This document shows, piece by piece, positions 17,697-28,700 of a stretch of DNA of 32,760 nt. The first letter of the stretch is position 1. Every line of letters begins with the position of its first letter. Below the pieces are notes generated by a model. The model was not told the origin of the DNA. It did no database searches and saw only the letters and a list, made by a program, of their open reading frames with translations. The position numbers and the translations under genes are program-made. The DNA lies in the IMG/VR virus record IMGVR_UViG_3300043774_000199, positions 1 to 32,760 of that record, one strand, 5' to 3'. The stretch is from a virus.

Positions 17697-18203
17697 CTAT
17701 ACAGTAGTCTTTGGGGTTTGAAAAAGAGTTAGGACAGAGGCTGTTGGATAGTTTTCTTTAGTTTTTTGATATGTTGGTCTTTGAACAGCAACTTCAACAT
17801 GCTTAACAACTTCTGTACCACCACCAGGTGCTGGAATACTAGTAGGAAAAGCAAAAAGCTGATTGCTTGTAGGGGTATTTGTAACAAAGGCCCATGGATA
17901 ATTAGTTAAGTTGTCTGTTCCATTTCCAATCCATCTTATAAAAACATCATAATTACTAAGCCCTAGTTCTGGTTTTGGATTCCAAGCAACTGTTACAAGC
18001 TTTGCAGAATTATTTACTGCAATACTATAGTCTAATAATGTTGTGACTGGTGCAACAAGATCTACTATTGGAGACCACGAAGAAAATCTATTTCTATCTT
18101 CAGAAACAATCCTATACCTAACGCTATAAGAAACTGTGTTAGCATCAACAGGAGGAAGTTCATTTTTAAAAATAGTAACTTTTGTAATTCCAGGATCTGC
18201 CAC
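17697..18203 (-). CDS. FN3-like minor tail protein, GTG start
   Basis: A 168-residue protein starting with GTG at 18203, whose first base is the last base of the preceding stop (TAGTG). The protein reads as beta-sandwich material of the fibronectin type III kind: VSYSVRYRIVSEDRNRFSSWSP (about 24-45), then AKLVTVAWNPKPELGLSNYDVFIRW (about 67-91). The conserved Trp and Tyr of FN3 strands appear in the second segment. It probably decorates the tail tip or fibre and aids host contact. No enzymatic motif is seen. It belongs to the tail operon by position and tight coupling. The domain call is by pattern only. Confidence 0.7.
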   Translation of the reverse strand: MADPGITKVTIFKNELPPVDANTVSYSVRYRIVSEDRNRFSSWSPIVDLVAPVTTLLDYSIAVNNSAKLVTVAWNPKPELGLSNYDVFIRWIGNGTDNLTNYPWAFVTNTPTSNQLFAFPTSIPAPGGGTEVVKHVEVAVQRPTYQKTKENYPTASVLTLFQTPKTTV

Positions 18204-19756
18204 TATGTCACGTCCACTATAAATCTAAACTCTATAAAGTTGCTTGTGTTGGGGGCTTTAACAATGCTTGTTGCTGAACCATTTTGAACAATAGAATATC
18301 CAGTCATACCATAAAGCACATTTTGTGTTTGGACATTGTCAAGTCTTAGTGCATCTAAAGCAACATAATAGTTAGAAGATGGAGCTCCATTCTTAAATAC
18401 GGAGGCATATACCTTTACCACTTCAACAGCATTCCAGTTAAAACCTGCTGTTCTAAATAGCCCCTGCAACTCTGTTGAGGCAACTATAAATCTATTTTTT
18501 TGAAAATCATATTGTCCAGCTCCAGTTCCATTATCTAAATTAATCTGGAATCTTGCAAATTGTCCACCACCAAGAATGTCAGTTGTGGAAAAGTCTACAA
18601 CAATTCTTACTGAGTCAGGCTGCACCAGGTCTGCTCCATCTTTATTTACAACAGAAAATGCAAGTTTTAGCAAATCTGCTGGAGAGTTTCTTGTAAGATC
18701 ATAACCTTTTCTATTAAGATGAATGTGACTTGAAGATGGTGATATTAAAAGTTCTTGTGCTTCATTAGTTTTAACTGCCTGACCGCCAGAAACATAAGAT
18801 GTGGTTGTTGCATTTGCTCTAGTAAAAGTTGTAGCATTTGTTACTGTAATTGCCGAGCTTGTGGCATTATACCCAGATGGGTTGATGCCTGTAATAGTTA
18901 CAGTATCTCCAGTTGCAAATCCGTGTGGTATTGATGTTGTGTAAGTAACAGTTGTTCCATTACCAGTTACCCCAGAAATTGGAGCATAGTCATAAATTGC
19001 AGCGTCATCGCCAGCCATAAAGATGGTATTGTTAAAAAAGCGTGGCCTTTCATATCTTGCAAGACGATCTGCACTAGTAAAGGTTCTATTGCTTGCAGAT
19101 GCCTGAAACACTGGAGCTACAACGCTAATAATATCATCATCATTTCCATCAAGTGGAATGTTGATTGGTGGAATCGCAATAGATGCAACATCATCGTGAT
19201 ACTCCCAGTTTTCCCCCTCAGCAAAAGAATATAAAAGCTTGCTGTCATAAATTCCTGCAACACCGTTTGACCCAGCAGAGAAAACTCCAATCTCTGTAAT
19301 TTCATATCTCTCTTCTGCTGGCATTTGTGCCGTAAAGACAACCTTACTTACTCCATTATCGTTAATATACCCACGAGAAGTAATTGGAGTTCTAAACATT
19401 TCAAAATCTAAAACTTTTTTTGCTGAGTCTGGTTGCAATGAAAGTGTTGCAGAGCTTAGTGCAGTAGATGGGGCATAGTTTACAACAAACTGCGTTCCGC
19501 TAGATATTGCGGTTACAACAGTATTTCCTGCAGAAGAAAGCGTTCCAGTTCCAGAAGTTTTTACTATTTGAGCACCAACCCAAAGCCCAAGTGTGCTATC
19601 AGTTGTTATTGTTGTGCCAGATGAGCTAACCCCAGTCAAGGTTGTAACGTTATTCCTTGGTTGTGCACCACAGCCCAATGCGATATAAGATGCGTACGCT
19701 GGAGTGTTTCCAACCAGGTACTTTGCAATAATTCCTTTACCTACGTCTGTAATCAT
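18203..19756 (-). CDS. Tail fibre/baseplate-like protein with two inserted beta modules
   Basis: A 517-residue protein. The N-terminus (MITDVGKGIIAKYLVGN) and later segments such as SAKKVLDFEMFRTPITSRGY and EERYEITEIGVFSAG resemble tail-tip-associated proteins of siphoviruses. The C-terminal third (about 340-517) is a beta-rich domain that could face the receptor. Two Thr/Gly/Ser-rich modules interrupt the backbone. One, about residues 39-107, has SGTTITTDSTLGLWVGAQIV. The second, about 260-329, has GNGTTVTYTT, HGFATGDTVTITG and YNATSSAITVTNATTFT. Both are of the kind repeatedly found inserted in phage structural proteins. The ATG has GCAGGA upstream. A role in host binding is inferred from position. 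Confidence 0.75.
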   Translation of the reverse strand: MITDVGKGIIAKYLVGNTPAYASYIALGCGAQPRNNVTTLTGVSSSGTTITTDSTLGLWVGAQIVKTSGTGTLSSAGNTVVTAISSGTQFVVNYAPSTALSSATLSLQPDSAKKVLDFEMFRTPITSRGYINDNGVSKVVFTAQMPAEERYEITEIGVFSAGSNGVAGIYDSKLLYSFAEGENWEYHDDVASIAIPPINIPLDGNDDDIISVVAPVFQASASNRTFTSADRLARYERPRFFNNTIFMAGDDAAIYDYAPISGVTGNGTTVTYTTSIPHGFATGDTVTITGINPSGYNATSSAITVTNATTFTRANATTTSYVSGGQAVKTNEAQELLISPSSSHIHLNRKGYDLTRNSPADLLKLAFSVVNKDGADLVQPDSVRIVVDFSTTDILGGGQFARFQINLDNGTGAGQYDFQKNRFIVASTELQGLFRTAGFNWNAVEVVKVYASVFKNGAPSSNYYVALDALRLDNVQTQNVLYGMTGYSIVQNGSATSIVKAPNTSNFIEFRFIVDVT

Positions 19757-19759
19757 ATT

Positions 19760-20686
19760 TTATCCTGCCTCATATATTGTACCACTAGAAGTTAGCTGGA
19801 CTTCTACTAATTCACCATTTCCTAGATTAACAAATTCGATTATCAAGTCACCATTAGAATCTAGGTACGTATTAGCACCGTTTGCACCATTGCCAATTTG
19901 CGGAATTTTACTAGCAAGGTTAATTGTAAAATTTCCAAAAATTGTGTCAGACGTGTCTCTAAGCTTTAGCATATTGTTTGGATTATACTGTTGCTGTAAT
20001 GTATTAATATTCTTGATAGGCTGATAAAGCACTGTCTGGCCATTGACCGTATCGTGCCTTGCAATAGTTAGTATTTCTTGACCACCAATACTTTCAAACA
20101 ACAAGTCAGCAATAATTTCTTTTGGAACAGCATCATCGTCAAACAATACAGTATCTATTGGTGCTACTTTCACCTTTGGTGGTGGTGGAGGAGGTGGAGG
20201 TGGTGTTGGATAACTTGGCTCTGGATTAACCACAACAGCATTAGATTGCTCCTCTTCCCCTGGACCTGGGTCTTGCTCTACTACATTATCTTGCGTCTCA
20301 GCTGGTTTTGGTACAAACATTGGAGGTGGTGGTGGGCTAAACATTGGTGGGCTAAACATTGGTGGCGGTGGTGGTGGGCCAGCTTGATTATCTAGCGTCC
20401 TCATATACTGAGTAAGACTCATACCAGAAGCTTCAAAAGCTGCTCTACTGGAAGCTTGCTGTTGAGCTGCTGGAGGTGGAATTGAAAACCTAGGTGGTGG
20501 AGGCGGTGGAGGAGGAACGGAAAACCTTGGTGGTGGTGGAGGAGGTGGATTAAACATGGGTGGCGGAGGTGGAGGAACGGAAAACCTTGGTGGTGGTGGA
20601 GGAGGTGGCGAAAACATTGGTGGTGGTGTCTTAGGAGGTGGAGACACCCTATCTGCAACTATTGGACCTATTCCTGCTCGTGCCAT
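19760..20686 (-). CDS. Polyproline-rich tail protein with globular C-terminal domain
   Basis: A 308-residue protein. Residues about 16-72, 104-123 and 160-170 consist of proline runs of up to nine residues broken by short units such as MFSPP and RFSVPP. Between the first two blocks lies a short helical segment (RAAFEASGMSLTQYMRTLDNQ, about 81-101), and an acidic stretch (VEQDPGPGEEEQ) follows. Residues about 176-308 are a non-repetitive domain with IADLLFESIGGQEILTIAR and a beta-rich end (GDLIIEFVNLGNGELVEVQL). It lies between the tail-tip and fibre genes. It is probably an extended linker or arm of the tail tip. The proline runs would stall ribosomes without EF-P, which could limit its amount. 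The function is inference. Confidence 0.75.
   Translation of the reverse strand: MARAGIGPIVADRVSPPPKTPPPMFSPPPPPPPRFSVPPPPPPMFNPPPPPPPRFSVPPPPPPPPRFSIPPPAAQQQASSRAAFEASGMSLTQYMRTLDNQAGPPPPPPMFSPPMFSPPPPPMFVPKPAETQDNVVEQDPGPGEEEQSNAVVVNPEPSYPTPPPPPPPPPKVKVAPIDTVLFDDDAVPKEIIADLLFESIGGQEILTIARHDTVNGQTVLYQPIKNINTLQQQYNPNNMLKLRDTSDTIFGNFTINLASKIPQIGNGANGANTYLDSNGDLIIEFVNLGNGELVEVQLTSSGTIYEAG
20511..20608. repeat. 60-bp-period tandem repeat within the polyproline gene
   Basis: A 38-bp sequence at 20511-20548 is repeated exactly at 20571-20608. The 22 bases between the copies, and those preceding the first copy, are also similar. An imperfect third unit begins near 20472 (GAAAACCTaGGTGGTGG). In the minus-strand protein each unit encodes a proline run plus RFS(V/I)PP. 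A smaller 18-bp-scale repeat, GTGGGCTAAACATTG, occurs twice at about 20333-20361. Such repeats can expand or contract by slippage or recombination. Confidence 0.9.
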
Positions 20687-20688
20687 TT

Positions 20689-23600
20689 CTATACCTCACT
20701 CACATGCACGGTCATTGATGGACCCTGACTATTTCTTGTATATTCAATATTATACACAACAAACCTTGTGTCTGGCTTAGCAATTGCTTGGATTGTTCTT
20801 GGAACGTAGTTTACGTTAACAATATCTCCAAGCTGCATTGTTGGGATTGGAAAAATCTGCATACCAACTGATTTTCTTGGCCTTAAGTTTTTATTGATAA
20901 TCCACTGAAGCAGCTCCTCAGCAGAGTCTTGATCTTGAATATAGTCACTCTGTAAAGAAAAATCATTCTTGCCATACAGCAATCTACTATTTTTAATCTT
21001 ATCGTATTGCTCTAAAACAACCAGTGGAGACTGAACTAGCGTGCTACCCTTTAGTTCTGGATCAGAAAGATTTCCCCTTCTTTTTAAGTAATCATCAACT
21101 GTAATTGTATTAGTTGTGTCTTGAGTAAACGTTACCCCCTGAATTCTTAAATAGTTTCCAGTTGTTTCATCAAGATTAAGAATGGTATCAGTATTATTAA
21201 ATACCAAAAATTCTGCTCCATAGGAATCTGCAGTAAATCCAGAAACGGTATAGCCTCTTAGTCTGTTAAATGTTGGAGCAATCTGTGCATATAGTGCAGG
21301 GTACGAACGATCATATTTAATATTAAAGTATGCACACTCTCTCATAATTTCCCCAAACTCTTCATAGTAAAGCTGATAGGCTGGAGTGCCACTAGGAGAT
21401 ATGCCGCTTAGGTATGTACTTTGAACAACTCCAGATATAGAGTATTTTTGAAGAGCCTCTAAAGCATTTATCTGATTGTTATCATCTCCAAAGACTGCAG
21501 CAATTGGCACGTTTGTGTCAAACACTGTATTTTGTGCATAATTTTTTCCTAATGCATAAACGTTTTCAAACATTAGCTTTGAGGTACCACGAACAAACAA
21601 GCCTATAGATGGCGAAGAAAACGTTAGTGGTGATGTATCAGTTATTGTTTTTACAAGCCTTTGATTAACGTATAAATAAAAAACTCTAGTACCTTCGTTT
21701 ACATCAATATACTCAATTGCTACATCGTAAACAGTTGGATTTTCTTCACCAGCAAACCTATATTGTCCAGTAAAGTTTCCATCATCGACAGTGATGTTTC
21801 CAATCCCACCCCAAAGTTTAACTGGGATAGCATCAGTAGAAGAAGCATCTTTTTGTATTTTATAAAATAACAAATTTTGTATTCCTACTGTTGGATTGCC
21901 CTCTTCATCTTTTTTCAGATATTGCTCTAGGTTGCCAGAAGTTAGTGCTGCAATTTCAAAATAGTATCCATTGTTTGTTGTTGGGTCAACTAAAGAAATA
22001 CCTCCAGAACCTCCACCAAGTGTTATAGTTTTTGTTGGGTCTTCATTTTCAAGAGTAAAGTAGTTCATGCCACCCACAGGAGATTGTTTGTTTTCTCCGT
22101 TTGCCTCAATTTTTCCTATAACACGAAGCCTAGTTCCAAAATGCTTATATGCTTTATCAATTGGCTTATATACATAAGATAAAAAGTCTTGTGGCTTTTC
22201 ATCACTGTTAAAGGTTGGTCCAGTAAAAACTAGTGCAGATGATTGAATAGTTCCAGAGCTTGTTGATTTTAAGTTAGAGACATCTGTTTCTGTTGCATAA
22301 TTACTAGACAAAAAGTTCTTAATAATTCCATTTCTTTGAGACTTTTCTGCTTTAGTTTTATTTAGTCCAGCAGCTCCAGCAGTTGTAGCTGGACCAGTAA
22401 TTGATGGGTCAATGTTGTATAAAAATTGAGACTTCATACTACATCCCTGGACATTGTTGATGCTTGTCCAGTATGGATCAATTGAGGCCTTGTGCTCAGC
22501 AATTGGTGTTCCAAACTGCCCACGACCGTGACTAACAACTTCTCCATTTTTTAATTTTGTTATTCCATCTCTAGTTTCGTAAAATGGCTCTGCATAAATT
22601 CTTATTCTTCCTGTAGGATATATTTTTCCATTAAACGGTAGCTTAGAAAAATATCTTTGATACTCAAGATTATCTGATAGGAACACGTTTCCAGTTCCAG
22701 TTATAGAATACTCTACGGCATCGTACTTAATAATTTCTCCACCAGCATAAAGGTATCCCTTAAACCTGGTAATCCAGTATGCATTTTCTCCAACGTCAAA
22801 AATATTATTAATTATTTGATGATTTAAAACTGATGGGACAGCACTACTGAGGTTTGAGTTAAGTGGCATTGCTCCTAATGCAAACTTTTCCTGTTTTTGT
22901 GCATTGGCAGTTGTAGTTTTTTCTGTGCCAGAGACTTCCCACAAAAGTGATGGCTTATATATCCAAGTTTTATCAACATGCAATGACTGCTGAAGAGATC
23001 CATAACTTCTTTGAATTGACCTTGTTGTATAGTCAATTGTTCCAGCATTAAAAACTTTTTTGTCTGCTGAAGAAATAGCAATAATGTTTGAAAGTTCTCC
23101 TGGGTCTCCAGAGTAATCTCCAACTTCGTTTTGCTCTTGTCCTCTCAAAACCATGTCTACTGGCCTAACGCTTTCATCTAGCATATAGCCCTTAGTCATA
23201 ATTATAAAGTTATTATATTCATCGAAGAACATCGCAGACTGTGTTGCTACTGCTAGATCAGCAAGAACCTCTGCAACACTTTGATTTGGTGCAATAAAAA
23301 AATATGGAATAACTGGATCTTTTTCATTTGTCAATCTTCTAATTGCGTAATTGCTAAATCCAATAGAGTCAAGTAAAAGACATACAGCTTGACTGAGAGA
23401 AACTTCTGTCAAAAGAATATGTGGAGATTCTAGGGATTCAAAGTGAAAGAATAGATCTCTAAGACTAATAGATATTTTTCCAGGCTCGCCTGAGTTTTGT
23501 GGAATACCCTCAGAGTATAAACTTTTTAAGGGAATGTAATAGCTTGTATCGTTTACATTTTCAATTAACTCATAAAAAGAAAACTTGATATTTTTATTTA

Positions 23601-25017
23601 AATATTTTGAAATAATACTACCAAGTCTTCCACCAGTCCACACATTGAATTCGTTGAATGCTTCATCGTAATCAAAAATATCAATGCTACCAGTAGATGC
23701 AAGTATTTGTCCTACAGGTAAACCAGCACCAGATAAATCAGATAAAGTTTTTGTTAGTCTAAACTCAGAAGTTATGTCTGACATATTAACAACTAACCTT
23801 GAAGAAAATTCAATAAGCTCTAATGGCGTATTTGGAGTGTTCATTGTTTCCACAACCAATCTAATTCCCTTTAACATTATGAATTCCCTAAAGATGGTAG
23901 ATCCATTGTCATTTTCTGTATAGTAAGAAGGATCAACTAGTTTAGTGACAAACCTATCTCCATCTGCAGTTAGATTGCTGCCTAAGCCCCAGGAGTATTT
24001 TGGTGGAACTACAAGCCAGTCACTTCCGTCCCAAACGTATAGATCTCCCTTATCATCATCACTTGAAGTAATTAAATAACCATCTCCAGTAGACTGATTA
24101 ATTGATGGTAGTTGCAGGGTGCTAGAAAGCTGACCAAGATATTTAAAATCATTTCCAAACTGATATGGATTTTCTAATCCATACTCTAAAGATAAATATC
24201 CATCAACGTCAAATATTGGGCTCTCTCCATCGTCCCTTACTGAAGAAGAGGTAAAGTTTGCTGCATCAAGCCATTGATTATTTGGATCTAAATACTGAAC
24301 CTTAAAATTAACTGGTGTTGTTTTGTTAGATGATCCAAAAAACGGGTCTGGGAATGCCGCACCGTTAGGGCCTCTAAATGGACCAAGGTCTATATTTCCC
24401 ACATTGGTCTGCAGTTTTATAACAATTCTGTTAGTTGGAACTGCCTCTTTATAGACTACAAAAGGAACAGCATCATCAATTGGATATACTCCAGTAGTGC
24501 TATTTTTAGAAATTCCGTATTCTTGAGTAACGCCATTTGCACTTTCAGTTCTGTATGATCTCCAATACTTAAACTCGTCATCTCTAGTAGACATGTAATA
24601 TCTTGGACGCAAAAACATGTTTACATCTGAGCTTGGCAAATACCTATTATTAAAATAAGATAACTTATTGATTCCAGACCTTGGCCTAAACGGTTTAATG
24701 CATTCCTCTAAAGAATAATACAGTCCTTCCTTTTGTTTTGGATATTTAAAAACAATAGGCTCGTCATCTTCATTAACAAACCCAGAATCAATTGTTACAT
24801 CTGCATCAGTTGCACCAGTATATGTGTTTGCTGTATCTATCAGCTCAAAATAATTAGGCAATACATTGTATAGAGTTCCATCTTTACGATATCTGTAATT
24901 TCCAAGTTTTTGAATATTTCCAGGAATATTCATGTTCCACTCAGCAATTACAAAGCTTTTTGAACTGACAGTTTGTGACGTTAAGAGGTAGTCTTTCAAT
25001 TCTTCATTTTGAAACAC
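20689..25017 (-). CDS. Large tail-tip protein with lectin-like (LamG/ConA-type) domain, GTG start
   Basis: A 1442-residue protein. The GTG at 25017 is preferred: it shares a base with the preceding stop (TAGTG), and AGGAGG lies four bases upstream. A GTG at 25050 would overlap the previous gene more and has no such site. The N-terminal third is beta-rich, with a discoidin-like appearance around residues 200-280. A central region includes the helical LSQAVCLLLDSIGFSNYAIRRL and SVAEVLADLAVATQSAMFFDEY, typical of the hub portion of tail-tip proteins. About residues 985-1155 resemble a laminin-G/ConA-like sandwich (YYFEIAALTSGN, YDVAIEYIDVNEGTRVFYLYVNQRLV). The end has NPPRKS-like hub features (LQWIINKNLRPRKSVGMQIF). 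It is probably the central tail hub that also binds host glycans. Confidence 0.75.
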   Translation of the reverse strand: MFQNEELKDYLLTSQTVSSKSFVIAEWNMNIPGNIQKLGNYRYRKDGTLYNVLPNYFELIDTANTYTGATDADVTIDSGFVNEDDEPIVFKYPKQKEGLYYSLEECIKPFRPRSGINKLSYFNNRYLPSSDVNMFLRPRYYMSTRDDEFKYWRSYRTESANGVTQEYGISKNSTTGVYPIDDAVPFVVYKEAVPTNRIVIKLQTNVGNIDLGPFRGPNGAAFPDPFFGSSNKTTPVNFKVQYLDPNNQWLDAANFTSSSVRDDGESPIFDVDGYLSLEYGLENPYQFGNDFKYLGQLSSTLQLPSINQSTGDGYLITSSDDDKGDLYVWDGSDWLVVPPKYSWGLGSNLTADGDRFVTKLVDPSYYTENDNGSTIFREFIMLKGIRLVVETMNTPNTPLELIEFSSRLVVNMSDITSEFRLTKTLSDLSGAGLPVGQILASTGSIDIFDYDEAFNEFNVWTGGRLGSIISKYLNKNIKFSFYELIENVNDTSYYIPLKSLYSEGIPQNSGEPGKISISLRDLFFHFESLESPHILLTEVSLSQAVCLLLDSIGFSNYAIRRLTNEKDPVIPYFFIAPNQSVAEVLADLAVATQSAMFFDEYNNFIIMTKGYMLDESVRPVDMVLRGQEQNEVGDYSGDPGELSNIIAISSADKKVFNAGTIDYTTRSIQRSYGSLQQSLHVDKTWIYKPSLLWEVSGTEKTTTANAQKQEKFALGAMPLNSNLSSAVPSVLNHQIINNIFDVGENAYWITRFKGYLYAGGEIIKYDAVEYSITGTGNVFLSDNLEYQRYFSKLPFNGKIYPTGRIRIYAEPFYETRDGITKLKNGEVVSHGRGQFGTPIAEHKASIDPYWTSINNVQGCSMKSQFLYNIDPSITGPATTAGAAGLNKTKAEKSQRNGIIKNFLSSNYATETDVSNLKSTSSGTIQSSALVFTGPTFNSDEKPQDFLSYVYKPIDKAYKHFGTRLRVIGKIEANGENKQSPVGGMNYFTLENEDPTKTITLGGGSGGISLVDPTTNNGYYFEIAALTSGNLEQYLKKDEEGNPTVGIQNLLFYKIQKDASSTDAIPVKLWGGIGNITVDDGNFTGQYRFAGEENPTVYDVAIEYIDVNEGTRVFYLYVNQRLVKTITDTSPLTFSSPSIGLFVRGTSKLMFENVYALGKNYAQNTVFDTNVPIAAVFGDDNNQINALEALQKYSISGVVQSTYLSGISPSGTPAYQLYYEEFGEIMRECAYFNIKYDRSYPALYAQIAPTFNRLRGYTVSGFTADSYGAEFLVFNNTDTILNLDETTGNYLRIQGVTFTQDTTNTITVDDYLKRRGNLSDPELKGSTLVQSPLVVLEQYDKIKNSRLLYGKNDFSLQSDYIQDQDSAEELLQWIINKNLRPRKSVGMQIFPIPTMQLGDIVNVNYVPRTIQAIAKPDTRFVVYNIEYTRNSQGPSMTVHVSEV

Positions 25018-25730
25018 TATACCTCCTCTAAAGTAATGCTGATATTCCACATGTCAAAATTGCCAGCACCTCTTTTTTCTATTGAGTAATTAAAAGAAGT
25101 AACGTACATAAAATAGAAATCTGTATAGTTAGCTAATTTCCCATAATTTGCATCATCATATCCATATGTAGCAAAATTATCATACGCTAGATATACCCAA
25201 AATGGAACTCTATGAGTTTGATACCAAGCAAGAATTTCTGCACCACCAGCTCCACCATCAACAGTGTACTGTTGGTCTGCAAAGTATGGTGAGCCAGAAG
25301 ATGCAATTGATCTAGTTTGATTTGGAGTTGCTGAATTACTGTCGTCATCAACGCTTGCAGACGTAATTATATCTGGCAATCCAGTAGTTTGAGAAAAGTC
25401 TGGGTTTGTTGCATAGGCCCTAGATGGTAATCTTTCCCAGCTTAACTCAATTGTTCTTTTTTCGCTAACATAAAAAGATCTCATTTGGGCGTTAACCATT
25501 CTTTGTCTATTTTCAAACCTATTTGAAGATATGTTGATTGGTCCACGATTATGATCTGACAAAATAATAAACGAATTTTCCGATATATCAGTTGTTCCAT
25601 ATTCTGAACTTAGTTCAAATCCAGGTGGTCTAGCAACGCCATTAACAAACACTGGGGCATTGTCAGCAAATAATACTGCCTGTGGTCTAGAATAACGTTT
25701 TCTGTTATTCATATATTGCTGGGTAGCCAT
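25017..25730 (-). CDS. Distal-tail-type protein downstream of the tape measure
   Basis: A 237-residue protein encoded directly after the tape-measure gene, the position of distal tail (Dit) proteins in siphoviruses. Recognisable parts are an N-terminal strand region (QAVLFADNAPVFVNGVARPPGFEL), a middle segment with RTIELSWERLPSRA, and a C-terminal part with ILAWYQTHRVPFWVYLAYDN and SFNYSIEKRGAGNFDMWNISITLEEV. The latter is typical of a tail-tube-like beta fold that ends in a strand. Its ATG overlaps the tape-measure stop (TAATG) and its stop overlaps the next GTG. Dit function is inferred from order and fold impression. Confidence 0.65.
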   Translation of the reverse strand: MATQQYMNNRKRYSRPQAVLFADNAPVFVNGVARPPGFELSSEYGTTDISENSFIILSDHNRGPINISSNRFENRQRMVNAQMRSFYVSEKRTIELSWERLPSRAYATNPDFSQTTGLPDIITSASVDDDSNSATPNQTRSIASSGSPYFADQQYTVDGGAGGAEILAWYQTHRVPFWVYLAYDNFATYGYDDANYGKLANYTDFYFMYVTSFNYSIEKRGAGNFDMWNISITLEEV

Positions 25731-28700
25731 TAGTTGATCACCTTACCCCTGAGTCGCTGAGAATCCATTTGCTTAATTTTCCTAATTACAGTGTTTGCAA
25801 TAGCGTCAGGGTTTGCTTCAGATCCACCCTTAACATTTACACTTAAGCTATAATTATACACTGTGCTAGAGTTATCTGAGTTAATGATTGATGGGCTTTC
25901 TGGTGTTCCTAGGTCATAGCCTCTTGGCATAGTGGGCCTAGGCATTCTAGATGGACCACTCAAATTTTTCCAGTTTGGTCTAGAAGGAGATGGAACTGAA
26001 ATCTTTAAATTATCTCTAAAAACTGGTTTAAGGTGATACTCATCTCCAGGTCGCATCATCATGTCTCTGATTAGTCCAGGGAATTTGCTTTCGTTCATTG
26101 CTTTAAGCATTGGCATAAATTCTTTTGTAGAGGCTTTGTTAACAACAAACTCTCCAGGAGTCAGCATAGTTGGGACCACGTCTCCCATTCCTGTACCGCC
26201 AACGACACCACCATAAGCCATTTTCTTAACAATTCCACCGTACTTCTTGGCACGTGCTCTATTTGCCATAGCCTTATCTCTGCTGGCTTCTGTAGTGGCT
26301 GCCTTCTTTTTATCGCTTGCAATCCATCTTTCTGCTGCATCAGCACTCATGCCAGCATATTTGTTTGTAGGGCTTGTTGACTTTGAGCTAGTTGTTGTGG
26401 TGGTAGACTTAGAGCTTGACCCTCCACCGCCACCGCCTCCTCCGCCTCCGCCTCCGCCAGCAGGAACAACAACTTCTTGAATAAACAACTTAACTGTTCT
26501 ATCTTTAATGCTTGTCCAATTCTTTACAATATCTCCAACAAGTAGTTTGGCTACGTCAAGAACATCTTTGTACTTTCCTGCAGCAATGTTTGAAAGGTCT
26601 TGAGCTAGTTTTGCATCTTCAAAAGCTTGTCTCTGAAGATCAATAGCATCAAGCTCAGTCTGTTTCTGCTGTTCTAAAACAGCAAGTCTATCTTGAGCAG
26701 CCTTAAGCGTTCCAGTTTCAATTGTATAAATTCTATCCTGCAAATCACGAATTTCACGAAGCTTTATTTCTTTTTGTTCTTCAAGGTTATAAATCTGCTG
26801 AGTAATTGCAAACTGTCTTTGTTCAATTTGCTCTCTGTTTAATCCAGATGCCCCAGTTAATCCAGCCAGTTCTGACTGACGAGCAGCATCCAATGCACCA
26901 CCAATTGAACCAGTAGCTGCTGCAGCTGATTGAGCCCTCATGTCTTGCATTAGTCCAGCTGCTGCTGAGATATCTCCCTGGCTTAATGCATCAGCAAGAC
27001 TAATTTGAGACTTCTGCTGATTAATGATATCCTGATTAATCTTTTTAACATCTTCTAGTGCCTTTGCCTGAGCGTCATACTTTTCAGTAATAGCCTTAGA
27101 CTTTTGATCAATAATTGCAAGGTCATTAGAAAGGTCGCTAGCTTCCTCTTGTAGATCAGCAATTGGTCTATCATAAGTAAGTTCAATAGTTCTTTCTTTT
27201 TTAGCAACGTCTTCTTGCAAATCTGAAATTTCTTTTTCAGCTGCTTCAATTGCATTTTGCTCTTTCTTAATCCTGTCACGATAGTTTCTTTCAATATTTC
27301 TTTCAAGAATATCGAAGTACTCGTTTGCCTTACTAATTATGTCGTCAAGGAATCCATCAAAGTCTGTTTGCACTTTAATAGATAACTCTAGTGCTTCTAG
27401 CTTCTTTGCTTCAGCATTTGTTTGCTTAATAAGACTAATAAGTTTTTCCCACTGAGCTGTGCCTGGTCTTGTCTTAGCTATAGCTGCTGCAATTTGTGGA
27501 TCGCTAGCTGCATCAAAAGCTTCCTTAACTCCCATACCAGCTGCACGAAGCTTATTAAATGCACCTATGTTATTCCTAATTTCGTCCCTTTGCTTTTGCA
27601 AGCCTTCAACTGCTTCTTGGTAGTCGCTCTTCTTTCCTGCTCCGCCGCCACCAGAGCGTGCTACAGGGGATGCGGCAGCTAGGGCCATCATTTCCCTATA
27701 CCTATCCATTAACACGGTCTGTTCGGCTGAGTTAGCTGCTGCTGCTAGGGCTGCTGCAAAGTTAGCATCCGCTACTGCAGCGGTAGCCTCAGCTGCACTA
27801 AACCCATTTTGAGTTAATATATTATAGGCTGTAGCTTCATTTTGAAGTGCTTGAATTCTTGCATCAAGATCATCAAGTCCCTCTCTGTATTCTGCTGCCT
27901 CAATCTCAACCTGAAGCTCTTCTTGTTTTGCTTCTGCTGCTGCTTCAGCTGCCTTGACTTCTGCATTGGTAGCCTCAACCATATCTTCTTTAATTCTAAG
28001 AAGTTCTTCCTGATCTTTTGGATTTGTGCTTTTAGAAAGTTGTTCCATTCTATCAATTGTTTCTTGAGGAACTTCTACACCGCTAAGCAATGCTTCAATA
28101 ACAACTAGCTGAGACTCTAAATCATTTAGGCCATTTAGCTGTTCTTCTACCCCAAGGTTTTTAGCAATTGTTGGAAGGACTAGGCCAAGAGCTGCTGGAT
28201 CTAAATCTCTAAGGTTTCCAGTAACTACAGAAATCTGAGACTGGAATTCTGTTGCAGAAAGAGTTCCCTGATCAAGTCCAGCCTTCAAGGCAGTAATTGC
28301 GGTACTTACTTCCCCACCTAAAGTTGCAGCCTGTTGCTTAAGCTTTTCTGGAAGAACCGCTGCTTGGGTCATAGTTCCTCTATAAGTTTCTATTGTTTGA
28401 GGAGGAACGTACGCTGCTTCAAATGCTTGATTGTATGCAGAGGCATTGGCCTTTGCTGTAGTTGCAATGCTTTGTAGTGATGCAGCATCAGTTGGGTCAA
28501 ACTTAACACCAAAAGATAAATCTACATTAGTCTTGCCTGCTTCAGTTGCAATAGCAGTAGCAAGTGCTGCAGCTGCTTCTGGATTAGATCCTGAAGCAAT
28601 CAACTGAATAATCATTGAGTTAAGGGCAGACTCTGCCTCAGCAAGGGTTGCACCTTTTATTGCACTAATCTGATCAGCAAAATCAGTAGTAAAGTTTTCG

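Follow-up and report, generated by a model that had tools for sequence, protein, structure and literature searches.

A poly-proline phage protein as one allele of a probably exchangeable N-terminal arm on a conserved C-terminal domain, in phages with likely actinobacterial hosts

The window analysed here is a virus record of IMG/VR, 32,760 bases in length. Its minus strand encodes, at 19760–20686, a 308-residue protein with long proline runs and linkers of the RFSVPP and MFSPP type, an open reading frame that had been described from the DNA letters alone and that its translation bears out. The protein falls into two parts, an N-terminal poly-proline arm and a C-terminal domain (CTD) shared with homologues. 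Two relatives, L002 and L003, form a three-member clade with the window, and L003 is the nearest. The features of the locus are as follows.

18203–19756, minus strand: downstream neighbour, a tail protein of 517 aa and possible fibre (phrog_9983).
19760–20686, minus strand: the whole gene, N-terminal poly-proline arm plus conserved CTD (308-aa ORF and homologues).
19763–20164, minus strand: CTD, residues 175–308, family unassigned (35–87% identity to the window's domain across 107 sequences).
20165–20686, minus strand: poly-proline arm, residues 1–174, an allele of a hypervariable N-terminal region (Pfam/PHROG match absent; dN/dS 0.19 against L003).
20177–20203, minus strand: nine-proline run adjoining the CTD, which replaces the PPPPPVKTAPID hinge of relatives (sequence comparison).
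20378–20470, minus strand: non-proline insert in the arm, residues 73–103 (AAQQQASSRAAFEASGMSLTQYMRTLDNQAG), kept in L002 and L003.
20498–20617, minus strand: two 60-bp tandem units, residues 24–43 and 44–63 (repeat search).
20571–20608, minus strand: exact 38-bp repeat, first copy (38 bp reached in 0 of 500 synonymous shuffles).
20511–20548, minus strand: exact 38-bp repeat, second copy, 60 bp further on in the gene (the region overlaps a 36-bp gap in L003).
20689–25050, minus strand: upstream neighbour, a Tal-like minor tail protein of 1453 aa (phrog_10359; 25% identical to Streptomyces phage minor tail proteins).

The first 175 residues contain 67 prolines, in runs of 7, 6, 7, 8, 6, 5 and 9 plus three runs of three, and the runs are joined by RFSVPP (twice), RFSIPP, MFNPP and MFSPP. 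The gene holds 37 PPP tripeptides, most of them near its start, versus none in the other ORFs (26 window ORFs examined). The arm's mRNA is 34% C and 17% G, and its proline codon usage (CCA at 46 of 67) matches that of the rest of the window (247 of 343). No tRNA genes were found in the window, and a promoter and terminator scan gave no more matches than shuffled sequence. The original prediction was of a protein built from 60-bp tandem repeats, with an exact 38-bp repeat at 60-bp spacing. The exact repeat is present; when synonymous codons were shuffled within the arm, the longest exact repeat averaged 20 bp and never exceeded 35 bp over 500 trials. Amino-acid composition alone therefore does not account for the repeat, which stems from duplication or conversion. 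The tandem unit also exists, but ‘built from’ overstated it, since there are only two copies, covering about 122 bp (20502–20623). Elsewhere the arm is rich in proline but irregular, and it surrounds the insert, which is probably helix-like.

The predicted location in the tail region holds, since the gene adjoins that of the Tal-like protein. Beyond the Tal-like gene lie genes for a 237-aa protein and then a 2249-aa protein, whose size and place suggest the tape measure. In loci fetched through the Tal-like gene, the CTD gene again comes directly after it, and both neighbours were readable in 158 of the 175 unique copies listed. Separately, we observed a weak E1_FCCH-like segment at residues 266–328 of the downstream protein at 18203–19756 (E 1.7e-5, below Pfam's cut-off) and, at 26421–26458, short repeats that encode a run of glycines in the tape-measure protein.

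The order tape measure, small minor tail protein, large minor tail protein is shared with Stanwilliamsviridae (BillNye and relatives). BillNye's small gene at the equivalent place, gp194 (112 aa), is unlike the window's; profile comparison showed no homology to the CTD, and it was rejected as a homologue. The Tal-like protein is about 25% identical, and DnaE 57%, to proteins of these Streptomyces phages, the record being a 32.8-kb fragment. A whiB gene, which has been taken as an actinobacterial marker in work on freshwater phages (PMC6802176), is carried by 6 of 16 large contigs that have the CTD gene. Together with the likeness of Tal and DnaE to Streptomyces phage proteins, this makes an actinobacterial host likely, with no assignment at the species level. 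From the literature on such phages, and not from the habitats of the contigs, we infer a freshwater origin.

Homologues were collected by scans with the Tal-like protein, the CTD and a second poly-Pro homologue, plus one DNA pattern. IMG/VR contains at least 301 complete copies of the gene, at least 175 of them non-identical; the family is larger than the set listed. Every complete copy listed shares the CTD of roughly 134 residues, and residues E24, E30, D38, G42, Y47, N52, F76 and F79 (domain numbering) are invariant in 107 chosen sequences. The domain has no family match in Pfam, PHROGs or PDB profiles; PDB profile matches at E 0.04–0.7 (alcohol dehydrogenases and the like) were rejected, as were matches of the full protein to the EA1 S-layer protein (E 0.005) and TOM40 (0.13), which were low-complexity or marginal. 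No homologues were found in annotated phage records by tblastn with either the full protein or a minimal homologue, nor did the CTD profile match any GTDB genome. AlphaFold2 models of the CTD from 38 and 107 sequences had pLDDT values of 48 and 61 and pTM of 0.33–0.34 and were not interpretable. Foldseek matched no PDB fold, its sole yield being an uncharacterised phage protein (A0A6J5P4M5) that is homologous by sequence and 41% identical. The open-licence literature searched contained no description of the family. A distant homologue, 35% identical, lies at L004:121–534 in IMGVR_UViG_3300005805_000898 and suggests a wider family.

The arms are far more diverse. Among the 175 non-identical copies listed, they range from 25 to 247 residues (median 134), and 35 have arms shorter than 45 residues. 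We distinguished minimal, LysM, helical (lysine/alanine/glutamate-rich), poly-Ser, (PT)n, (GP)n and poly-Pro arms; among listed copies whose arms number 55 residues or more, 57 types can be told apart at less than 45% global identity. LysM (PF01476) was matched by 6 of these 57 representative arms (best E 6.9e-12). The window protein has no Pfam match and hence no LysM, and most representative arms match no adhesin. Two of them give weak matches (best E 1.4e-4) to FIVAR, a domain known from bacterial surface proteins. The arms of L162, L126, L128, L157, L120 and L025 have in common a short segment that contains cysteine (such as CPSGHERVRITFMDGVETNVESLGC) and has no named family among the matches listed. 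Most copies share a proximal hinge, xTPxTP ... PPPPPVK, and order-promoting residues are scarcer in arms than in the CTD (0.205 vs 0.336).

Poly-Pro arms as dense as the window's are rare: only 3 of the 175 listed unique copies have at least 15 PPP motifs, namely the window, L003 and L164, with L002 left out of the count since its 5' end is cut off. The DNA pattern for the poly-Pro unit found 32 stretches, and a CTD accompanied it only in the known L003 contig and in L164; the other stretches with readable poly-Pro frames were rejected as unrelated to the gene. Within the window's own clade (window, L002 and L003), only poly-Pro arms were observed.

Next, we compared arms on near-identical backgrounds, using 125 pairs in 31 groups whose Tal C-termini are at least 95% identical; we counted groups because pairs are not independent. 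In 8 of the 31 groups, arms less than 35% identical occur in spite of this Tal identity, and in the lowest-arm pair of each of those eight the CTDs are 0.89–0.99 and the downstream proteins 0.91–0.99 identical. As the copies were gathered by their likeness to one gene, such shares do not represent frequencies in a population. Over all 125 pairs, median identity is about 95–98% for both the CTD and the downstream protein, and that of the arm is 0.70 where Tal is at least 98% identical and 0.39 where it is 95–98%. The pair L022/L259 has arms 0.25 identical despite values of 0.99 for Tal, 0.99 for the CTD and 1.00 for the downstream protein. In L271/L269, nucleotide identity is 94.6% before and 95.9% after an unrelated arm, and the breaks, as located by aligning nucleotides, fall at the start codon and at CCACCAGTTAAAACAGC; in the compared pairs generally, the swap boundaries are the start codon and the PPVKTAPID linker. 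One pair of arms is 69% identical on CTDs that are 63% identical, an excess that suggests transfer. Swapping was seen in sister clades and was not observed within the window's three-member clade. All sequences come from metagenome assemblies; the recurrence of the same junctions in separate contigs argues against chimeras, short of excluding them. We rejected the possibility that the gene is the target of a diversity-generating retroelement, as whole N-terminal segments are replaced with changes of length, rather than adenine-directed point changes at the C-terminus.

Arms also change in length. The original prediction proposed repeat number among relatives as its own test, and the number does vary: a 12-residue unit is missing from the poly-Pro array of L003, precisely where the window has its repeated unit, L002 has a different repeat arrangement, and the sister pair L106/L145 has 8 versus 16 (GP) units with identical CTDs and downstream proteins. 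In an alignment of about 11 kb between the window and L003, the arm stands out between Tal and the downstream gene as the site of several gaps. The same comparison shows 81 gap bases at 25250–25499, more than in the arm, within the 237-aa gene between the Tal-like and tape-measure genes, and 12 at 26250–26499, around the tape-measure glycine run, whose length may vary too. Against L003, dN/dS is 0.19 in the arm (dS 0.45) and 0.15 in the CTD, values that are approximate since the repeat alignment is uncertain. Of 58 aligned proline positions, 54 have proline in both, and the codon differs at 17 of the 54. By this estimate the poly-Pro arm is under purifying selection, which favours a role at the protein level over one at the level of the nucleic acid alone.

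On balance, we lean towards reading the gene product as a small accessory protein at the tail tip of a siphophage that infects actinobacteria, with a tail-docking CTD and an exchangeable spacer or adhesin arm. The CTD would dock on the tail, probably on the upstream Tal-like protein (docking on Tal is our assumption), and would hold out the N-terminal arm. The arm would be a cassette whose exchange points are the start codon and the proline-rich hinge; where it consists of simple repeats, units gained or lost would alter its length as well. Some arms would carry LysM or helical modules while others would be plain spacers, the window's being a polyproline-II spacer. LysM arms suggest the cell wall as the target, and arm exchange probably adjusts how the tail meets the host cell, although LysM can be structural in some phage baseplates (PMC11915804). 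This proposal presumes that the protein is present in the virion, that it touches the cell wall and that changes of host drive the diversification. The original prediction had called the protein a stiff arm; a poly-Pro arm is indeed present, but it is only one allele on a conserved CTD, so that stiffness cannot be what the gene provides in general.

An unlikely alternative is that the arm is a weakly constrained disordered tether, drifting and expanding by slippage, whose sequence is irrelevant. Low-complexity tracts of poly-P, poly-S, (PT)n and (GP)n do vary in length among close relatives, and arms of about 30 residues suffice in the 35 short-armed copies. However, the dN/dS of the poly-Pro arm indicates constraint, and drift would not yield the replacement of unrelated whole modules, LysM included, at sharp boundaries. 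Less probable again is an intracellular protein, either an assembly factor or an anti-host factor of variable specificity. The CTD matches no structural protein, as would be expected of it, but the constant place between two tail genes, the proline-rich hinge and the wall-binding LysM modules of some arms fit an extracellular tail part better.

Least probable, if only slightly so, is a brake on expression, in which the 37 PPP motifs, mostly near the gene start, pause ribosomes, EF-P sets output and the C-rich, G-poor mRNA may permit Rho-dependent polarity downstream: so few copies share such motifs that this is not a conserved control, the ordinary CCA usage gives no sign of tuning, and amino acids are kept while codons change. 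Work on E. coli has documented EF-P dependence and Rho uncoupling at poly-Pro tracts (PMC5021804, PMC8129111), which makes it likely, as the original prediction held, that translation of the arm depends on EF-P; EF-P limitation as its purpose is unsupported, given that codon usage is ordinary and nearly all relatives are without such runs.

Hypervariable recognition genes in phage tails are already known (PMC3909814, PMC10202952). As in the metaviromic islands of marine phages, which hold host-recognition genes (PMC3909814), a tail-region gene, here in the module from the Tal-like gene to the tail protein gene, differs between otherwise near-identical phages, as it does in the eight groups above. 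As for a binding domain, LysM occurs in six of the 57 representative arms, and the window's has none. In contrast to those islands, it is the N-terminus of a small protein that varies here, with a constant C-terminus and fixed junctions. The ‘Ca. Planktophila’ phage island (PMC10202952) likewise belongs to freshwater actinobacterial phages and is a variable stretch over part of a tail fibre and collagen-like repeat proteins, but it is a 5-kb, multi-gene region seen by recruitment, whereas ours is one cassette of up to about 250 codons within one gene, and the likeness is one of kind rather than of established homology. Phage fibres usually vary at the C-terminus. The present layout, with a constant CTD and a variable N-terminus, is the reverse of that classical order. 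Three features set the present case apart from those known: a C-terminus that stays constant while the N-terminus varies, a cassette that lies in one gene and has fixed junctions, and a domain of an undescribed family.

Freshwater Actinobacteria have abundant phages, most of them still uncultured, in which the genes for host specificity are largely uncharted. A single-gene cassette with constant flanks, present in hundreds of contigs, would give a short amplicon for tracking diversification in one lake, and it would also mark the tail-tip gene and lend itself to a swap experiment of defined design. Only as a member of an allelic series can the odd poly-proline protein be understood. Tentatively, and with confidence a little short of even, we propose that this series marks a dedicated tail-tip diversification site in a large group of environmental actinobacterial phages, in which a constant docking domain of an undescribed family would carry an arm cassette that is replaced whole (LysM, helical, poly-Ser, (GP)n, poly-Pro or almost nothing) and tuned in length by repeats, allowing fast change in how these phages reach and hold the cell wall.
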